Of a stretch of 10,262 nt of DNA, positions 1,714 through 8,625 are shown piece by piece. This stretch comes from Capsulimonas sp. (lineage in GTDB: Bacteria; Armatimonadota; Armatimonadia; Armatimonadales; Capsulimonadaceae): positions 1 through 10,262 of the forward strand of contig JAOQAA010000527.1 of the NCBI GenBank assembly GCA_025963815.1, given 5' to 3'. The notes under the pieces were generated by a model. It was not told the DNA's origin. It worked only from the letters and a program-made list of their open reading frames with translations, and made no database searches. The position numbers were made by a program, and so were the translations under genes. Numbering within the stretch: the stretch's first letter is position 1; each line of letters starts with the position of its first letter.

Positions 1714-3348
1714 ATGAGCGAAATATCATCGAACTTGAAACTCGGCGCCGAGCCGCTGGATCTGACGGCGGACGTGCTGGTCATCGGCGGCGGCCCCGCC
1801 GGAACGTGGGCGGCGTGGAGCGCGGCGTCGAAGGGCGCGCGCGTGGTGCTGGCGGACAAAGGGTACTGCGGCAGCAGCGGCGCGACTGCGCCGTCGGGCG
1901 TCGGAGTATGGTATGTCGAGCCCAATCCCGAGGAGCGCGCCAAGGCCAAATCGAGCCGGGAAGCGCTCGGCGGCTTTCTCGCCGACCATGGCTGGATGGA
2001 CCGCGTGCTCGACCAGACCTATGAAAACGTCGCGCATCTCGCCCAGTGGGGCTACCCGTTCCCGACCAACGAGCGCGGCGAACAGGTCCGGCGCGGCCTG
2101 CAAGGGCCCGAGTATATGAAGATCATGCGCAAGATCGTCAAACAGGCCGGCGTGCGCATTCTGGACCACAGCCCCGCTCTGGAGCTGCTGCTGGACTTCG
2201 ATGGGACGGTCGCCGGCGCTGCGGGCGTCCAGCGCCAGGATGATCGCCCCTGGTCGGTCAAGGCCGGGGCCGTGGTGATCGCCACCGGCGGCTGCGCGTT
2301 CCTAAGCAAGGCGCTGGGGACAAACGTCCTGACCGGCGACGGCGGCTTGATGGCGGCCGAAGTCGGCGGCGAGATGAGCGGCATGGAGTTCTCCAACGCC
2401 TATTCGCTCGCCCCCGCGTTCTCCTCAGTCACGAAGAGCGCTTATTACAACTGGGCGTCGTTTACCTACGAAGACGGCCGAATCATTGAAGGCGCGGGAT
2501 CGCAGCGCGGACGTTCGGTGATCGCCCGAACGCTTCTCACGCAGCCGGTCTTCTGCCGCCTCGACAAGGCTGACGAAGAGACGCAGGTCTGGATGCGCAA
2601 GGGACAGGCGAACTTCTTCCTGCCCTTCGACCGCGCGGGGATCAATCCCTTCACGGATCGGTTCCCGGTCACGATGCGTCTCGAAGGCACCGTGCGCGGC
2701 ACCGGTGGCATTCGGATCGCTGACACGACCTGCGCCACGACCGCTCCGGGCTTATATGCGGCGGGCGACGCGGCGACGCGCGAGCTGATCTGCGGTGGCC
2801 TCACCGGCGGCGGCAGCCACAATGCGGCCTGGGCGATCTCCTCGGGATACTGGGCCGGCGGCGGAGCGGCGGATTACGCGCTGGCTCTGGGCGACAAAGC
2901 CCACAGCCGCCGCTTGCGCGGCGCGGGTCGCGCTGGACTGCGACCTTCGGGAGCAGGCTTCGAGACCGCTGAGGTCGTGCGCGCCGTCCAATCCGAAGTC
3001 TCGCCTTATGATAAGAACCTGTTCCGGACCGAGCAGGGCCTGAGCGATTCGTTGACCCAACTGAATGGGCTGTGGCGGGCCGTCCAGGGACGCCCGGATT
3101 CGGCGACAACGGCGGAAGGCGCGCTCCAAGCCCGCCAGGCGGCGGCGATGGTCGCGACCGCCCGCTGGATGTACGCCAGCGCCCGTGTCCGCACCGAGAC
3201 GCGCGGCATGCACAAGCGCATCGACCACCCGGGGCAGTCTCCAGAACTGCAATATCGCCTTCTGAGCGGGGGGCTGGACACTGTCTGGGTCAAGCCCGAC
3301 CCAACCAGCGTCGCCGCTCCGTCCTCGAAAGAAACGGTGGCTTCATGA
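1714..3348 (+). CDS. asfA: AsfA-like FAD-dependent oxidoreductase (SdhA/FrdA/AprA-type flavoprotein)
   Basis: This is a 544-residue cytoplasmic flavoprotein of the fumarate reductase / adenylylsulfate reductase alpha superfamily. Visible features are the N-terminal dinucleotide fold VLVIGGGPAG (G25, G27, G30) with D48 ending the second strand, the CGSSGATAPSG FAD segment (52-62), IATGG (189-193), GTGGIRIAD (329-337), the second FAD contact GLYAAGDAA (346-354), GGGSHNAAWA, and a C-terminal helical domain with RTETRGMH (493-500) resembling the family's ESRG-H motif. It is shorter than typical AprA. GGGAG at 1701-1705 is 8 bases from the ATG. Its partner is the ferredoxin directly downstream, followed by a sulfonate-type ABC transporter. 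That order fits the asfA-asfB-binding-protein arrangement of the arylsulfonate locus in Pseudomonas putida S-313, where AsfA is considered the reductase. The substrate is inferred only from context. A divergent AprA-like or other flavoprotein dehydrogenase is the main alternative. Confidence 0.85.
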   Translation: MSEISSNLKLGAEPLDLTADVLVIGGGPAGTWAAWSAASKGARVVLADKGYCGSSGATAPSGVGVWYVEPNPEERAKAKSSREALGGFLADHGWMDRVLDQTYENVAHLAQWGYPFPTNERGEQVRRGLQGPEYMKIMRKIVKQAGVRILDHSPALELLLDFDGTVAGAAGVQRQDDRPWSVKAGAVVIATGGCAFLSKALGTNVLTGDGGLMAAEVGGEMSGMEFSNAYSLAPAFSSVTKSAYYNWASFTYEDGRIIEGAGSQRGRSVIARTLLTQPVFCRLDKADEETQVWMRKGQANFFLPFDRAGINPFTDRFPVTMRLEGTVRGTGGIRIADTTCATTAPGLYAAGDAATRELICGGLTGGGSHNAAWAISSGYWAGGGAADYALALGDKAHSRRLRGAGRAGLRPSGAGFETAEVVRAVQSEVSPYDKNLFRTEQGLSDSLTQLNGLWRAVQGRPDSATTAEGALQARQAAAMVATARWMYASARVRTETRGMHKRIDHPGQSPELQYRLLSGGLDTVWVKPDPTSVAAPSSKETVAS

Positions 3349-3376
3349 TCCAGAAAGAAACGGTAATCTCATGATC
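3327..3376 (+). repeat. Imperfect 24-base tandem duplication over the asfA/asfB junction
   Basis: Bases 3327-3350 and 3353-3376 share GAAAGAAACGGT and TCATGATC, separated by GGCT in the first copy and AATC in the second. That gives 20 or more identities in 24, at a period of 26. Each copy carries an ATGATC. The first ATG (3345) overlaps the TGA of the flavoprotein gene; the second (3371) is the ferredoxin start. A local duplication of the translation-initiation region explains the pattern best. Confidence 0.75.
3345..3374 (+). other. Nine-codon micro-ORF bridging asfA and asfB
   Basis: The ATG at 3345 overlaps the flavoprotein stop as ATGA. It opens a frame encoding MIQKETVIS and stops at TGA 3372-3374, which overlaps the ferredoxin ATG as a second ATGA. 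It appears to be a by-product of the 26-base-period duplication. A ribosome could terminate, restart, terminate and restart across it, keeping the two large proteins translationally coupled. Whether the peptide is made is unknown. Confidence 0.3.
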
Positions 3377-3715
3377 GAGCTCGTCAGCCAATCGCGCTGC
3401 ATCGAATGCAATCTCTGCGTCAAGGTCTGCCCGACCAACGTCTTCGACGAGGTCGAAGGCGGCGCGCCCGTGATCGCCCGTCAGTCCGCATGTCAGACCT
3501 GCTTCATGTGCGAGGTCTACTGCCCAGTCGACGCCCTTTATGTCGCCCCCGAAGCGGAGACTTCGGTCGAGGTGAATGAAGATCGTCTGATCGATCTGGG
3601 ACTGCTCGGCAGCTACCGCGAGGCGGTTGGCTGGGGACCGGGACGCACGCCCGGCGCGGCGAAAGTCGACGCGTCGGAATACATGCAGGAAAAGATACGC
3701 AAGACGCTGCACTAG
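3371..3715 (+). CDS. asfB: AsfB-like 2x[4Fe-4S] ferredoxin
   Basis: This 114-residue soluble ferredoxin has two complete C-x2-C-x2-C-x3-C-P motifs: C10, C13, C16, C20 and C41, C44, C47, C51. Each should hold a [4Fe-4S] cluster. The C-terminal 55 residues are acidic then basic, with no further cysteines. The two-cluster layout beside a flavoprotein recalls AprB with AprA, but the tail is shorter than in AprB. It probably passes electrons to or from the AsfA-like flavoprotein. The start codon overlaps the stop of a nine-codon micro-ORF that itself overlaps the flavoprotein stop, which indicates translational coupling. The only purine-rich site upstream is a weak GAAACGG, so coupling may matter for expression. 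The four-base ATGA junctions tie this gene firmly to the same mRNA as asfA. Confidence 0.88.
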   Translation: MIELVSQSRCIECNLCVKVCPTNVFDEVEGGAPVIARQSACQTCFMCEVYCPVDALYVAPEAETSVEVNEDRLIDLGLLGSYREAVGWGPGRTPGAAKVDASEYMQEKIRKTLH

Positions 3716-3744
3716 GGCGGCTCTTTAACAGACGTAAAGCTTCG

Positions 3745-3822
3745 GCCCCTCCGCCCCAATTCTGGGGGACCGGAAAATGCCGTTGTCCGAAATCGGGTCC
3801 CCCAGAATTGGGGCGGAGGGGC
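3745..3822. repeat. 27-base perfect inverted repeat (palindromic intergenic element A)
   Basis: GCCCCTCCGCCCCAATTC at the start of the left arm (3745-3771) is mirrored exactly in the right arm (3796-3822), with 27 of 27 pairs and a 24-base spacer. Each arm also contains a small internal palindrome, CCCCA-GAAT-TGGGG on one strand. It looks like a REP or BIME-type element, or a small non-autonomous mobile repeat. It lies between asfB and the binding-protein gene, inside the cluster, and could act as an mRNA stability stem or partial terminator. There is no T-run after it. Confidence 0.8.
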
Positions 3823-3830
3823 TCTTCTCA

Positions 3831-3857
3831 GGTTCCCTAGAATTGGGGCGGAGGGGC
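3831..3857 (+). repeat. Third, diverged copy of the element A arm
   Basis: This 27-base unit matches the right arm at 3796-3822 in the same orientation with two changes (C to T at its fourth and eighth bases), at a spacing of 35 bases. The core AGAATTGGGGCGGAGGGGC is unchanged. Its presence shows that the arms are a dispersed or tandemly multiplying unit rather than a single hairpin. Confidence 0.75.
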
Positions 3858-3929
3858 GATCCTAACTCTGCTCCTTACGACGGGGACGGGTCCGAAGCTC
3901 TGCGGCGTAGATTACGAAAGGAATTTGTG

Positions 3930-4973
3930 TTGAGGACGATGGACAACGAAACGCGAACGAAACGCCGATGGATGGCCGCCGCGACCGGCGCGCTAGCCCT
4001 GCCGATCCTGTTCTCCGGCTGCGGCCCCAAAGGTGAAAACTCTCGAAACGGCGCCGAGGGCGACGCGGCGGGCGTTCTGCGGGTCGGCATCATCAGCACG
4101 ACCGGCAAGCAGCCTTCGGGACCGGAAGGCCTCGCCTACAAGCAGGGGACTTTTATCAAGGATCTTGCGAGCGCAGGAATTACGAAGATCGAGTTCACTC
4201 CCTTCGGCAACGGCCCGGATTTGAATGAGGCGATGGCGGCGGGCGGTCTGGATGTCGGCGAGTATGGCGACACACCTTCCCTCGTCGGCCGCGCGGCGGG
4301 ACTCAAGACCCGCGCGATCAACCAGGGAACGGTCGGGATGAACGCCTGGCTGATCGCCCGCACCGACGGTCCCAAAACCGTGGAGGAGCTGCGCGGCAAG
4401 ACGGTCGCCACTTCCAAGGGTTCCTACATGGCGCGTTATCTGTTGGGACTTCTGGCGGAGAAGGGACTGTCGAAGGAAGTCAAGTTCATCCATCTGCTGC
4501 CCAATGCCGCAGAAGCCGCGCTTCAGCACGGCGACATCGCGGCGTACGCGGCCCCGAGCGGAACGGGCCCGCTTCTGATCCAGCATGGTTACAAAGCCAT
4601 CGATCAGGCCAATCAGCATCCGGGGCTCAGCGGCAGCAGCGTCACGGTAGTCTCCGAGAAGTATCTCGCGGCTCACTCCGATTTCCCAACGATCTGGAAC
4701 AAGGCCCGCGCGAATGCGATCGGCTACTCGATTGCGCATTCCGAAGAGTATTACCAGTATCAGACAGCGCAGAGCAAGCTGCCGGTGGAGATCGTCAAGG
4801 CCTCCTACCCGATCACGCTTTATTCCAAAGAGCCATTTACAGCGAAGGGGCTCGCGCTGCTGGGTGGAACCAAGGCGTTTCTCGTACAGCAGGGGCTCGC
4901 CAAATCAGACTTCGATCTGAAAGGCTGGACTGTTTCCTCGGCGGACGCCAAGCAGGCGGCGCTGCCGAAATAG
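3930..4973 (+). CDS. ABC transporter substrate-binding lipoprotein, SsuA/TauA (NMT1-like) type
   Basis: This is a periplasmic or membrane-tethered binding protein for sulfonates or a related anion. From the TTG at 3930 the product has 347 residues. An N-terminal TKRRWMAAATG segment with a twin arginine precedes a hydrophobic stretch, and the lipobox-like LFSGC ends at C31. The domain starts at LRVGIISTTG and includes GDTPSLVGRAAG, KTVEELRGKTVATSKGS and TVVSEKYLAAH, all standard for the SsuA/TauA/nitrate-binding group. The frame stays open back to ATG 3777, but that extension runs through palindromic repeats and has no export signal, so it is judged not translated. AAAGGA (3917-3922) sits 7 bases before TTG 3930; GTG 3927 and ATG 3939 are alternatives. 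It corresponds in position to asfC of the P. putida locus. TAG at 4971 is 13 bases before the permease start. Ligand identity is inferred from the neighbours. Confidence 0.85.
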   Translation: MRTMDNETRTKRRWMAAATGALALPILFSGCGPKGENSRNGAEGDAAGVLRVGIISTTGKQPSGPEGLAYKQGTFIKDLASAGITKIEFTPFGNGPDLNEAMAAGGLDVGEYGDTPSLVGRAAGLKTRAINQGTVGMNAWLIARTDGPKTVEELRGKTVATSKGSYMARYLLGLLAEKGLSKEVKFIHLLPNAAEAALQHGDIAAYAAPSGTGPLLIQHGYKAIDQANQHPGLSGSSVTVVSEKYLAAHSDFPTIWNKARANAIGYSIAHSEEYYQYQTAQSKLPVEIVKASYPITLYSKEPFTAKGLALLGGTKAFLVQQGLAKSDFDLKGWTVSSADAKQAALPK

Positions 4974-4986
4974 GAGAATTTCAACG

Positions 4987-5850
4987 ATGAGCACACCCAT
5001 CGCGTCGCGACGGATTTGGCGCGGCTCTCTCACGCAAGATAACACAATTCCGGCGGCGTCCAAGTCAAAGACGCGTACTCCAGGCGATCTTTGGGGACGC
5101 GTACTGCCCTGGGCCGTCCCGCTCGTCATTCTGGCGGTCTGGCAATGGCTGTCGCTGCGCGGGACGATCGCGCCCCAAGTTCTGCCGTCGCCGATCGGCG
5201 TCGTCAAGGCCGGCGTCTTACTGGCGCACACCGAACTGGCGGCGGATATCGCCATCAGCGCCAAGCGCGCCTTCACCGGCTTCGCGATTGGCGGTTCATT
5301 GGGCTTCGTCTTCGGATTGATCAATGGACTGATCCGCCGCAGCGAGCAAACGCTGGACAGCACCATTCAAATGGCGCGCACCATCCCGCACCTAGCGCTG
5401 ATCCCATTGCTGATTCTCTGGTTCGGCATCGGTGAAGAGACCAAGATCGTGCTGGTCGCTCTGGGCGTCTTCTTCCCGATCTATCTCAACACGTTTCACG
5501 GGATGCGCGCCGTCGATCCCGCCCTGGTGGAAGCCGGCCGCGTCTACGGGATCAAAGGCTTTCGGCTGTTCCGGCAAGTGATCCTGCCGGCCGCCCTGCC
5601 ATCCATCTTGATCGGCCTTCGGTTCGCCCTCGGCTCGATGTGGCTGACCCTGATCGTCGCCGAAACCGTCGCCGCAGACTCCGGCATCGGATATATGACG
5701 ACCAACGCCCGCGAGTATATGCAAACCGACATCGTCGTCTTCGGCATTTTGCTTTACGCCCTGCTCGGAAAGGGCGCCGACCTCGCCGCGCGACTGCTGG
5801 AGCGCGTGCTCCTGCCGTGGCACACGGGATATGGCCGGGCGGGGAAGTAA
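4987..5850 (+). CDS. ssuC: ABC transporter permease, SsuC/TauC type
   Basis: This 287-residue inner-membrane permease of the binding-protein-dependent transport family has a long basic N-terminal tail (about 38 residues), then roughly six membrane spans starting with PWAVPLVILAVWQWLSL. The cytoplasmic EAA loop that docks the ATPase is clear: EAGRVYGIKGFRLFRQVILP (182-201). MARTIPHLALIPLLILWFGIG and AETVAADSGIGYM are typical of the SsuC/TauC/NrtB branch. AGGAGA (4972-4977) lies 9 bases before the ATG and overlaps the stop of the binding-protein gene. It would form the translocation pore with the ATPase at 6045-6845. The 194 bases between them contain a large inverted repeat, so permease and ATPase levels may not be equal. 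Confidence 0.88.
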   Translation: MSTPIASRRIWRGSLTQDNTIPAASKSKTRTPGDLWGRVLPWAVPLVILAVWQWLSLRGTIAPQVLPSPIGVVKAGVLLAHTELAADIAISAKRAFTGFAIGGSLGFVFGLINGLIRRSEQTLDSTIQMARTIPHLALIPLLILWFGIGEETKIVLVALGVFFPIYLNTFHGMRAVDPALVEAGRVYGIKGFRLFRQVILPAALPSILIGLRFALGSMWLTLIVAETVAADSGIGYMTTNAREYMQTDIVVFGILLYALLGKGADLAARLLERVLLPWHTGYGRAGK

Positions 5851-5862
5851 GATTCGGCCCTC

Positions 5863-6035
5863 ACCCTCTCCGGGTGACCCACCCCCGGCCTTCGGCCGCC
5901 CCCTCCCTTGAAGCAGGGAATGGTAATTAGGAATGGATGTCGCAGGCGACTTTCGTCCGAGTATTTCTTTCCAACCCTTCCCTGCTTCAAGGGAGTGGGC
6001 GGCCGAAGGCCGGGGGTGGGTCACCCGGAGAGGGT
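5863..6035. repeat. 58-base inverted repeat with 57-base core (palindromic intergenic element B)
   Basis: Left arm 5863-5920 and right arm 5978-6035 are reverse complements at 57 of 58 positions; the single mismatch is C5902 versus T5996. Each arm holds a small stem, CGGCC-TTC-GGCCG. The 57-base centre (5921-5977) includes the palindrome GTCGC-AG-GCGAC (5939-5950). No ORF of transposase type is inside, so this resembles a MITE or a large REP pair. It sits between the permease and ATPase genes. The right end supplies GGAGAGGG (6027-6034), which is the best ribosome site for ATG 6045. Confidence 0.85.
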
Positions 6036-6044
6036 TACACGGGC

Positions 6045-6845
6045 ATGTACAATACAAACAAAGCAGGGTTAACTAACGTGACCACGATCTTACAAAAACC
6101 GCAAACAACAGACACGAAAAACACATCCCGGGGCGCACGCGTCGCCGTGCGCGGGGCGCATAAATCGTTTGGGAATAATCATGTCCTGATCGATTTAGAT
6201 CTGGATATCGCCCCCGGCGAGTTCGTGGCGGTAGTCGGGCGCAGTGGATGCGGAAAGAGCACGCTGCTGAGACTTCTGGCGGGCCTGGAGCCGGCGAGCA
6301 GTGGGTTAGTCGCGATCGACGACGCGCCGCTGCGTGCTCTGCATCCCGACGTCCGTGTGATGTTCCAGGACGCGCGTCTGATGCCCTGGATGCACGTTTT
6401 GGAAAACGCCGGCCTGGGTCTTAATGGTGATTGGAAGCCGAAGGCGCAGGCCGCTCTGGATGACGTCGGCCTCGGCGACCGGGGCGGCGACTGGCCCGCA
6501 ATCCTGAGCGGCGGCCAGCGCCAGCGCGTCGCTCTTGCACGCGCCCTCGCGAGCCACCCGCGCTTTCTGCTGCTCGACGAGCCTCTCGGAGCTCTTGACG
6601 CGTTGACGCGGCCGGACATGCAGCGCCTGATCGAAGACCTCTGGCGTCAGCGCGGCTTCACGACTCTGCTGATCACCCATGACGCCGAAGAAGCCGTCGC
6701 CCTCGCCGACCGGGTCGTCCTCATTCAAAACGGCGTCATCTCGGTCGATATCCCGATCGAGCTTCCGCGCCCCCGCGACCGGGCCTCCGCCGAATTCATC
6801 GCCCTGCGCGAGGAAATCCTGCGCCACGTACGAGCGGCGGAGTGA
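6045..6845 (+). CDS. ssuB: Sulfonate ABC transporter ATP-binding protein SsuB
   Basis: This ATPase subunit powers the sulfonate importer at the inner face of the membrane. From ATG 6045 it has 266 residues with Walker [10 protein letters not shown] (65-73), Q-loop Q108 in [10 protein letters not shown], signature LSGGQ (154-158), Walker B FLLLDEP (174-180) and H-loop H212. Long stretches recall E. coli SsuB closely: FVAVVGRSG, the MFQDARL-PW segment, [17 protein letters not shown], and the IPRPR tail. This is the strongest single pointer to sulfonates in the cluster. The open frame extends back to 5937 through the repeat, which is unlikely to be real sequence. ATG 6045 uses GGAGAGGG at the repeat's end, 10 bases away. 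GTG 6078, with CAGGG 9 bases upstream, is a reasonable alternative and still keeps the whole domain. The gene closes the cluster. Confidence 0.88.
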
Positions 6846-7281: not shown

Positions 7282-8625
7282 TTACCGAGGAATTTCGATG
7301 ATCACCGGATGATCGGCCAGCGCGAGCTTGACGGAGCGGACTCGGCCCAGCGTCTGCGTCGGATCCGTCCCCACCGTCGGATCGTAAACCTTCACGCCTG
7401 CGTACTCCCCTCCTAAGTTCACTGTGATATCATCCGACCCCGTCACTCGTTCACCCCATACAATCAATTCCAGAGTCCCATCGCTCTTTTGCAGCAGCAA
7501 ATCGTGGACAGTCGCCGGTGGGTTTGGGATCGAATAGGCAAGGCTCTTCAAGCTGAGAACTTTCTTCGATTTCATGGGCGCTGTGTCGGCAAGGATCGTT
7601 GTCATGTTGTGCAGATAGATACCGGACTTCTTCGCATGGTAGTCCGTATCGAACAATCCCCAGTATCCCTGGTTCGGGTCGTCTCGGAGCATATAGATAA
7701 ACGTGTACTTCCAGTTTTGCTTGAAGCCGTCTAAATAGAGATTCAGAAATACGCGCCCCTGCTGCTCCTCGGTGACGCTATTCGCGCCCCGTGTCTGCCA
7801 GCCTGTTTCCGTGCAAACCTTCGGCAGAGTTATCAGCTGATCGTTCGTATAGCCCGAGAAGCCGCCATGCCATGTGCGGCCATACTCGACATAGAGTCCA
7901 TCCCAATCGCCGTTCAGCGTCGGATTGGTGGCGTTCCAGCAGATGTTGTCCACCAATTTGCTGCTATGGCCGCAAACATAGTTGTGCGTGTTCGCATAGT
8001 CAGCGAGTTGGGTTCCGTCTGGCGTCAGCGCGCTGGCGCCAGACGGAACAGTCAAGTATTGCAGACCAACATTGTCTTTCTCCGACCCGCCCGCTTCGCT
8101 GGTGTGAAATATGGGAACGCCCTTCAAACTCGGTTCGGCTTGGACCGCTTTGTACAGATCGCTCTGGAAACGGGCGATCGGCAGCGCGGTCGTCTCATAC
8201 CCCGACGTCTTGCCTTCATAGGTCACCGGCCAGTTATTCGGCTCGTTCGGCCCTTCCACCGCCAGAAGAGCGCCTGCCGCCTTCAGCTGTTTCGCCATAC
8301 TGATGGTCTCGGCGATGTTGTGATTGGTCAGCAGACAGGTGCGAACGCCCGACTTTTGATAAACGCTGATCCAATCGGGGACATGAGCAGGGCTGCCATC
8401 GTCCCGAAGGTTCTTCACCCCCAGATACGACAAACAAACCGCGCTTTTCGACGGATCGTCGATCCCCTGGGCCATATGCGTACAGACGCCTAGCGAGTTC
8501 AGAAACTCCTCAGCTCGGACGGCTTTTGTCGCCGCCATAGCCGAGACAGGGCAAAATATGGTCGCCATAAGCAAGCTTGGGATTACATATTGCCGAAGGG
8601 AAATTGGGAATATGTTTTGCGCCAT
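7282..8625 (-). CDS. Secreted glycoside hydrolase-like (beta/alpha)8 barrel protein, clan GH-A type
   Basis: This is a 447-residue exported protein. A signal peptide covers about residues 1-31, with R11, a hydrophobic stretch and an A-M-A cleavage site. The mature part reads as a TIM barrel. GVKNLRDDG (69-77) fits an early strand. VEGPNEPNNWP (123-133) has the Asn-Glu of a clan A acid/base (E128). THNYVCG (213-219) fits strand 6. VCTETGWQT (270-278) carries the likely nucleophile E273. YMLRDDP fits strand 8. The last 80 residues look like a beta-sandwich with VIWGER- and VYDP-like strands, as in GH39/GH30/GH5-related enzymes. The family and sugar cannot be fixed by eye. The preceding minus-strand SDR gene ends 74 bases upstream, and a 14-bp hairpin occupies that gap just before the ATG. 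The stop is 14 bases from the convergent small-protein gene. Confidence 0.75.
   Translation of the reverse strand: MAQNIFPISLRQYVIPSLLMATIFCPVSAMAATKAVRAEEFLNSLGVCTHMAQGIDDPSKSAVCLSYLGVKNLRDDGSPAHVPDWISVYQKSGVRTCLLTNHNIAETISMAKQLKAAGALLAVEGPNEPNNWPVTYEGKTSGYETTALPIARFQSDLYKAVQAEPSLKGVPIFHTSEAGGSEKDNVGLQYLTVPSGASALTPDGTQLADYANTHNYVCGHSSKLVDNICWNATNPTLNGDWDGLYVEYGRTWHGGFSGYTNDQLITLPKVCTETGWQTRGANSVTEEQQGRVFLNLYLDGFKQNWKYTFIYMLRDDPNQGYWGLFDTDYHAKKSGIYLHNMTTILADTAPMKSKKVLSLKSLAYSIPNPPATVHDLLLQKSDGTLELIVWGERVTGSDDITVNLGGEYAGVKVYDPTVGTDPTQTLGRVRSVKLALADHPVIIEIPR

Follow-up and report, generated by a model that had tools for sequence, protein, structure and literature searches.

A probable asfAB operon joined to an SsuABC-like importer in Capsulimonas as a candidate locus for sulfur scavenging from sulfonates

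The locus studied here raises the question of whether a member of the Armatimonadota carries genes for obtaining sulfur from sulfonates. It lies at positions 1714–6845 of a stretch of 10,262 nucleotides from a Capsulimonas sp. genome (GenBank assembly GCA_025963815.1, contig JAOQAA010000527.1), the whole of which is called the window below. It consists of five co-directional genes with 0 internal stops, in the order asfA-asfB-binding protein-ssuC-ssuB (Table 1). An earlier note, made from the letters alone, had listed a flavoprotein, a 2x[4Fe-4S] ferredoxin, a lipoprotein, a permease and an ATPase in one direction, and all five were found. We infer sulfonate use by the cluster, probably an operon of the asf type through which sulfur is scavenged from these compounds. 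This reading was built on the identities and tree position of AsfA and AsfB, the family ranking of the SsuABC-like importer, conservation in Capsulimonas corticalis, recurrent linkage of such genes elsewhere, and the Pseudomonas putida model.

The flavoprotein and ferredoxin were compared with AsfA and AsfB of Cupriavidus metallidurans CH34 and were 57% (552 aligned positions) and 58% (102 aligned positions) identical to them, respectively. The second large replicon of CH34 held one AsfA match (E ≤ 1e-5), followed by AsfB as the next open reading frame, the same adjacent order as in the window. According to the available parts of PMC2864759, asfRAB is located on that replicon, with AsfA/AsfB as Rmet_4334/5; the compared pair (L012), matched to an unannotated record, would be this published pair. 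The maximum-likelihood tree, with 41 rows, had a 100/100 branch splitting 35 AsfA rows, including that of C. metallidurans, from six outgroup rows (Escherichia coli FrdA, SdhA and NadB, AprA and an AprA-like protein from other Armatimonadota genomes, and an FrdA-like protein), so the check with AprA and FrdA outgroups proposed earlier gave a separate AsfA clade. The tree neighbours of the window AsfA were the C. corticalis AsfA, the rows P0003, P0004 and P0011, and a Sorangium protein.

Residues of FrdA were followed through the alignment: H233 was replaced by Y, H356 by E, R391 by T/S, and H45 by G in 35/35 AsfA rows. The His/His/Arg set is what we take to bind the dicarboxylate, and the remaining His presumably links the flavin adenine dinucleotide (FAD) in Frd/Sdh. 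Since these positions are replaced, fumarate reductase activity is unlikely for AsfA, and with the tree branch the replacements led us to reject an assignment to fumarate reductase, succinate dehydrogenase or L-aspartate oxidase. Membership in AprAB was likewise rejected, as the AprA model gave 32.9 bits against a cut-off of 641.75 and AprA fell outside the AsfA clade. The two-[4Fe-4S] motif was present in 22 of 23 AsfB proteins, the window's included. The assignment of the two proteins to AsfA and AsfB, already made in the earlier note, is thus well supported by the sequence comparisons.

For the importer, the SsuC model ranked first for the permease (323.7 bits; NCBIfam cut-off 347), the SsuB model for the ATPase (338.6 bits; cut-off 395), and SsuA_fam for the lipoprotein (106.5 bits; curated SsuA cut-off 163.5). 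The proteins are called SsuABC-like because these are their best families and the cut-offs were not reached. The lipoprotein described before as SsuA/TauA-type and the ATPase described as very SsuB-like therefore kept their places at the level of family and ranking, but not at that of the curated models. By eye, Walker A, signature and Walker B motifs were present in the ATPase, and a lipobox-like stretch followed the revised start of the lipoprotein.

The cluster is conserved in C. corticalis, where the five-gene order is kept, with protein identities of 82–93% (AsfA 90%, AsfB 93%) and dN/dS of 0.04–0.12 for each gene. Such ratios indicate purifying selection on the five genes, and with their order retained as well the cluster is more than a chance association. 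In the searches by phylum and by family, the best candidates per genome were scored (at most 4 for AsfA in the phylum, 13 for AsfA in the family, 17 for SsuD and 15 for NtaA/DmoA). AsfA (E ≤ 1e-60) was matched in 2 of 291 Armatimonadota genomes, both Capsulimonas, and the phylum origin suggested by the earlier note was correct. PAPS-reductase-family genes (PAPS, 3'-phosphoadenosine 5'-phosphosulfate) were present in both genomes, in keeping with sulfur assimilation. Among open-licence papers, none on asf in Capsulimonas or Armatimonadota was found; in term searches, 'asf' was absent from PMC13352529 and PMC7661421, and 'sulfonate' and 'ssu' from PMC12524902.

Further asfAB pairs occur in both genomes: one in the window's genome, for which the 13.9 kb stretch examined gave no transporter match, and three in C. 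corticalis. The second pair of each genome (L014, L017) had no transporter match nearby and was adjoined by what appeared by eye to be a PAS-domain-like sensor gene. At the fourth pair of C. corticalis (L016 10044–10487), similarity to the binding protein spanned two frames, as in a broken gene or after a sequencing error.

Linkage of asfAB to such importers was found well outside Capsulimonas. Of 7999 candidates scored in a search of ~5.8 billion proteins, 5116 matched AsfA at E ≤ 0.001, a count that probably takes in wider superfamily members; among the 120 best matches listed were Sorangium, Nostocales and Capsulimonas. An AsfA match was present in 77 plasmid records (58 covering ≥80% of the query), with Azospirillum, Paenibacillus, Cupriavidus, Nocardia, Pseudonocardia and Nostoc among the carriers, whereas named genome contigs, when scanned, yielded one relative. 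Relatives at 53–73% identity were found in Bacillota, Cyanobacteria and Myxococcota, and AsfA (E ≤ 1e-60) in 44/104 genomes of the Paenibacillus eucommiae family. Judged by these matches, AsfA proteins occur in no fewer than six phyla (Armatimonadota, Bacillota, Cyanobacteria, Myxococcota, Pseudomonadota and Actinomycetota).

Gene neighbourhoods were inspected at 26 loci, 14 of them named (P. eucommiae, C. metallidurans and 12 others from the plasmid collection) and 12 from Paenibacillaceae. The P. eucommiae family has 16 AsfA genomes with no SsuD-like match (E ≤ 1e-100); 11 of these, and one genome with SsuD (G305), supplied the 12 Paenibacillaceae loci. Among the other 32 AsfA genomes, a wide stretch was covered for P. 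eucommiae alone (L007). In all 26 loci asfB followed asfA, and a binding-protein gene came after asfB in 11/12 Paenibacillaceae loci. The asfA-asfB-binding-protein triplet was seen in P. eucommiae, P. cellulositrophicus, Azospirillum, Haematobacter, Paracoccus aminophilus and Shinella. Other sulfur genes near asfAB were cysDN (Paracoccus), cysE (Azospirillum) and ssuD (Nostoc). On these counts, the pairing of asfAB with an adjacent SsuABC-like importer recurs as a cassette and is no peculiarity of this genome.

The ssuC-ssuB-asfA-asfB-binding-protein cassette of Paenibacillaceae (the 12 loci and P. eucommiae L007) has parts equal to the window's. Best tblastn identities in the 12 loci were 54–66% for AsfA, 57–70% for AsfB, 41–59% for the permease, 38–70% for the ATPase and 39–54% for the binding protein. 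The importer genes mostly stand before asfA there, whereas in the window they follow the binding-protein gene; a further permease or asfAB pair is present at some of the loci, the binding protein is missing from one, and P. eucommiae has one extra gene ahead of asfA. In C. metallidurans CH34, nearby ABC (ATP-binding cassette) genes, 34–41% identical, are on the opposite strand, and an open reading frame that looked amidohydrolase-like by eye lies between asfAB and these genes. For P. putida S-313, asfRABC as described in the accessible parts of PMC4267179 likewise comprises a reductase flavoprotein, a ferredoxin, a binding protein and an ABC transporter. The S-313 arrangement claimed for the window therefore holds for these parts but not for the LysR regulator of that system, given in the same source, as no LysR match was obtained among the 11 window proteins in Pfam/NCBIfam scans; the phyla also differ. 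This regulator, AsfR, is part of the S-313 cluster but not a defining feature of AsfAB proteins as a family.

By the proposed mechanism, the binding lipoprotein would capture a sulfonate outside the cell membrane, and the SsuC/SsuB-like permease and ATPase would import it. In AsfA, the FAD would receive low-potential electrons from AsfB, and AsfA would support a flavin-dependent monooxygenase, encoded at another place in the genome, in cleaving the C–S bond; the sulfite freed would then be assimilated. In the family scans of the 11 window proteins, no oxygenase was recognised. In C. corticalis, the partner could come from a separate ssu locus (L025), which holds genes for an SsuA-like protein, two SsuD, SsuC and SsuB, or from the NtaA/DmoA monooxygenase gene ~4.9 kb upstream of the first SsuD, the one gene of this family in that genome. 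The two ssuD genes are in tandem (L025 8597–11028), both above the curated cut-off (TIGR03565).

Several observations weigh against this reading. No regulator was recognised in the family scans of the 11 window proteins. All three transporter parts score under the curated SsuA, SsuB and SsuC cut-offs, which leaves the ligand uncertain. Binding proteins of the alphaproteobacterial triplets were just 27–31% identical to the window's or, in Azospirillum, undetected at 1e-8, and their ligands may differ for that reason. In the window's genome, which is 69% complete with about a third missing, neither SsuD (E ≤ 1e-5) nor an NtaA/DmoA protein (E ≤ 1e-60) was found. When the 14 named loci were searched by tblastn with nine queries of the luciferase-like monooxygenase (LLM) and TauD types, neither kind of gene was matched in six of them.

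Partner oxygenases were examined further in the 104 genomes of the P. eucommiae family. SsuD above the curated cut-off was present in 21/44 AsfA genomes and 22/60 others (Fisher P = 0.31). NtaA/DmoA monooxygenases (TIGR03860, E ≤ 1e-60) were present in 44/44 and 43/60, respectively, with a P of 3e-5 that overstates independence, because the genomes are interrelated and this family is common (87/104). When genomes of ≥7 Mb were taken, the counts were 34/34 against 29/35 for NtaA/DmoA (P = 0.025) and 15/34 against 16/35 for SsuD (P = 1.0). SsuD may not be an obligatory partner of AsfA. In the tblastn search of the named loci, LLM-like genes were matched in six and TauD/2-oxoglutarate-type genes in five, counts that include self-matches, as five of these loci, together with C. 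corticalis, supplied the queries. The LLM proteins submitted from near asfAB in Pseudonocardia, Bradyrhizobium, Rhizobium daejeonense, Sphingobium and Nostoc edaphicum were all (5/5) above the TIGR03860 cut-off, a count to which an R. etli end-of-locus fragment and further LLM genes of Nostoc and Sphingobium do not belong.

These neighbours bear on the alternative that survives best, namely that the importer and AsfAB supply sulfur from another organosulfur compound, such as a sulfone, sulfamate or sulfate ester, by way of an NtaA/DmoA- or TauD-type oxygenase. The NtaA/DmoA membership of the nearby LLM genes, the TauD-like dioxygenase genes near asfAB, and the transporter scores below the SsuA, SsuB and SsuC cut-offs all speak for it, but SsuA, SsuB and SsuC are still the best family matches, and the reported mutant phenotype concerns aromatic sulfonates: in the accessible parts of PMC4267179, mutation of asfA in P. 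putida S-313 abolished the use of aromatic sulfonates and left that of aliphatic ones intact. We consider this alternative unlikely, though not negligible. If the locus is an asf-type system for sulfonates, as we favour, its substrates are likely, by analogy, to be sulfonates that SsuD alone does not serve, e.g. aromatic ones.

It is also conceivable, though quite improbable, that AsfAB itself desulfonates, with the AsfB-fed FAD of AsfA attacking the sulfonate as in the reductases of adenosine 5'-phosphosulfate (APS) and PAPS with sulfite, and with no monooxygenase involved. The PAPS reductase of Methanothermococcus thermolithotrophicus (PDB 8a8o) and AprAB each combine, like AsfAB, an FAD chain with a small ferredoxin-type chain. 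The AsfA profile matched 8a8o_A over nearly its whole length (positions 10–506, 7.8e-28), and 8a8o_C was among the AsfB matches (3.5e-8); the best PDB matches of AsfA by sequence were nevertheless SdhA and FrdA chains, not 8a8o. In its favour, 16 of the 44 AsfA genomes of the P. eucommiae family were without an SsuD-like match at E ≤ 1e-100, and 10 of the 11 loci from such genomes gave no LLM or TauD match (tblastn, nine queries, 14–17 kb). These points are met by the NtaA/DmoA matches in every AsfA genome of the family. Desulfonation in P. putida S-313 incorporates oxygen derived from O2, which also speaks against a desulfonating AsfAB. So does the complementation of ssu by asf in P. putida, as given in the accessible parts of PMC4267179.

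That the flavoprotein is a relative of fumarate reductase or aspartate oxidase with no link to sulfonates, standing by chance beside a nitrate/taurine-type importer, agrees with its Pfam and NCBIfam placement in the FrdA/NadB superfamily but can hardly be credited against the replaced FrdA residues, the 100/100 branch and the repeated linkage of AsfAB to SsuABC-like importers.

Table 1. Features of the asf-type locus, with positions in the window
Feature	Position	Strand	Description
asfA	1714..3348	+	544-amino-acid FAD flavoprotein, fumarate reductase/APS reductase superfamily; without the FrdA dicarboxylate-binding residues
asfB	3371..3715	+	small ferredoxin, 114 amino acids, two CxxCxxCxxxCP motifs (2x[4Fe-4S])
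inverted repeats	3745..3857	.	spacer between asfB and the binding-protein gene; related copy elsewhere in the genome
SsuA-like substrate-binding lipoprotein (AsfC position)	3939..4973	+	344 amino acids, start revised from 3777
SsuC-like ABC permease	4987..5850	+	287 amino acids
inverted repeat	5863..6035	.	62-nucleotide arms, 97% complementary; spacer between permease and ATPase genes
SsuB-like ABC ATPase	6078..6845	+	255 amino acids, GTG start, revised from 5937

Two starts of the open reading frame list were dropped. For the lipoprotein, the start in Table 1 is most likely, as the resulting protein is exactly as long as a relative in the database that is 99% identical; for the ATPase, the GTG is most likely, as ssuB of C. 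corticalis has equal length and the same start codon. The spacer inverted repeats look like dispersed repeat elements: related copies were seen in the same genome at L017 10530–10613, beside the second asfB, and at L005 1357–1435, and neither repeat had a blastn match at the operon locus of C. corticalis. Rfam gave 0 matches at the gathering score in the window, and 0 tRNA genes were found there.

A pilin-like DUF1559 gene (778–1665) lies 48 bp upstream of asfA, and in C. corticalis a similar gene (L025 12105–12977) immediately precedes ssuA. The search for an ssu locus in the window's genome gave 42 matches, two at the cluster's own ATPase and permease genes and 40 at one end of a pilin-like gene; since 40 places in the genome match that gene's end, its adjacency may be chance. 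Family matches were missing altogether for 2 of the 11 window proteins. A 447-amino-acid protein on the minus strand (7282–8625) had a signal-like start by eye and no Pfam/NCBIfam match, and its PDB matches were limited to short stretches of ~40 residues. AprA above the curated cut-off was seen in 1/291 Armatimonadota genomes (G007, L078).

The earlier note had placed such loci mainly in Pseudomonadota and some Actinomycetota, a view not supported in the light of the relatives in Bacillota, Cyanobacteria and Myxococcota; since the family reaches at least six phyla, the novelty of a phylogenetic outlier is weakened. The Capsulimonas cluster is a new location for a known system, not a new system. 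The gene asfA serves in soil ecology as a marker for the mobilisation of aromatic sulfonates, and the lists of carriers in the accessible parts of PMC4267179 and PMC9694294 name Pseudomonadota and Actinomycetota only. Surveys built on such lists may miss carriers, as the family extends to Armatimonadota, Bacillota, Cyanobacteria and Myxococcota. A bolder view, possible but doubtful, is that AsfAB-importer cassettes form an SsuD-independent system for sulfonate desulfurisation that is widespread outside Pseudomonadota, in which its electron carriers would feed NtaA/DmoA-family flavin monooxygenases or, at the boldest, AsfAB would cleave the C–S bond itself; asf as an addition to ssu in P. putida would then be the exception. 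As AsfA and SsuD were not associated in the P. eucommiae family, the chemistry of AsfAB would be testable in culturable strains, and independence from SsuD is the lead most worth following.

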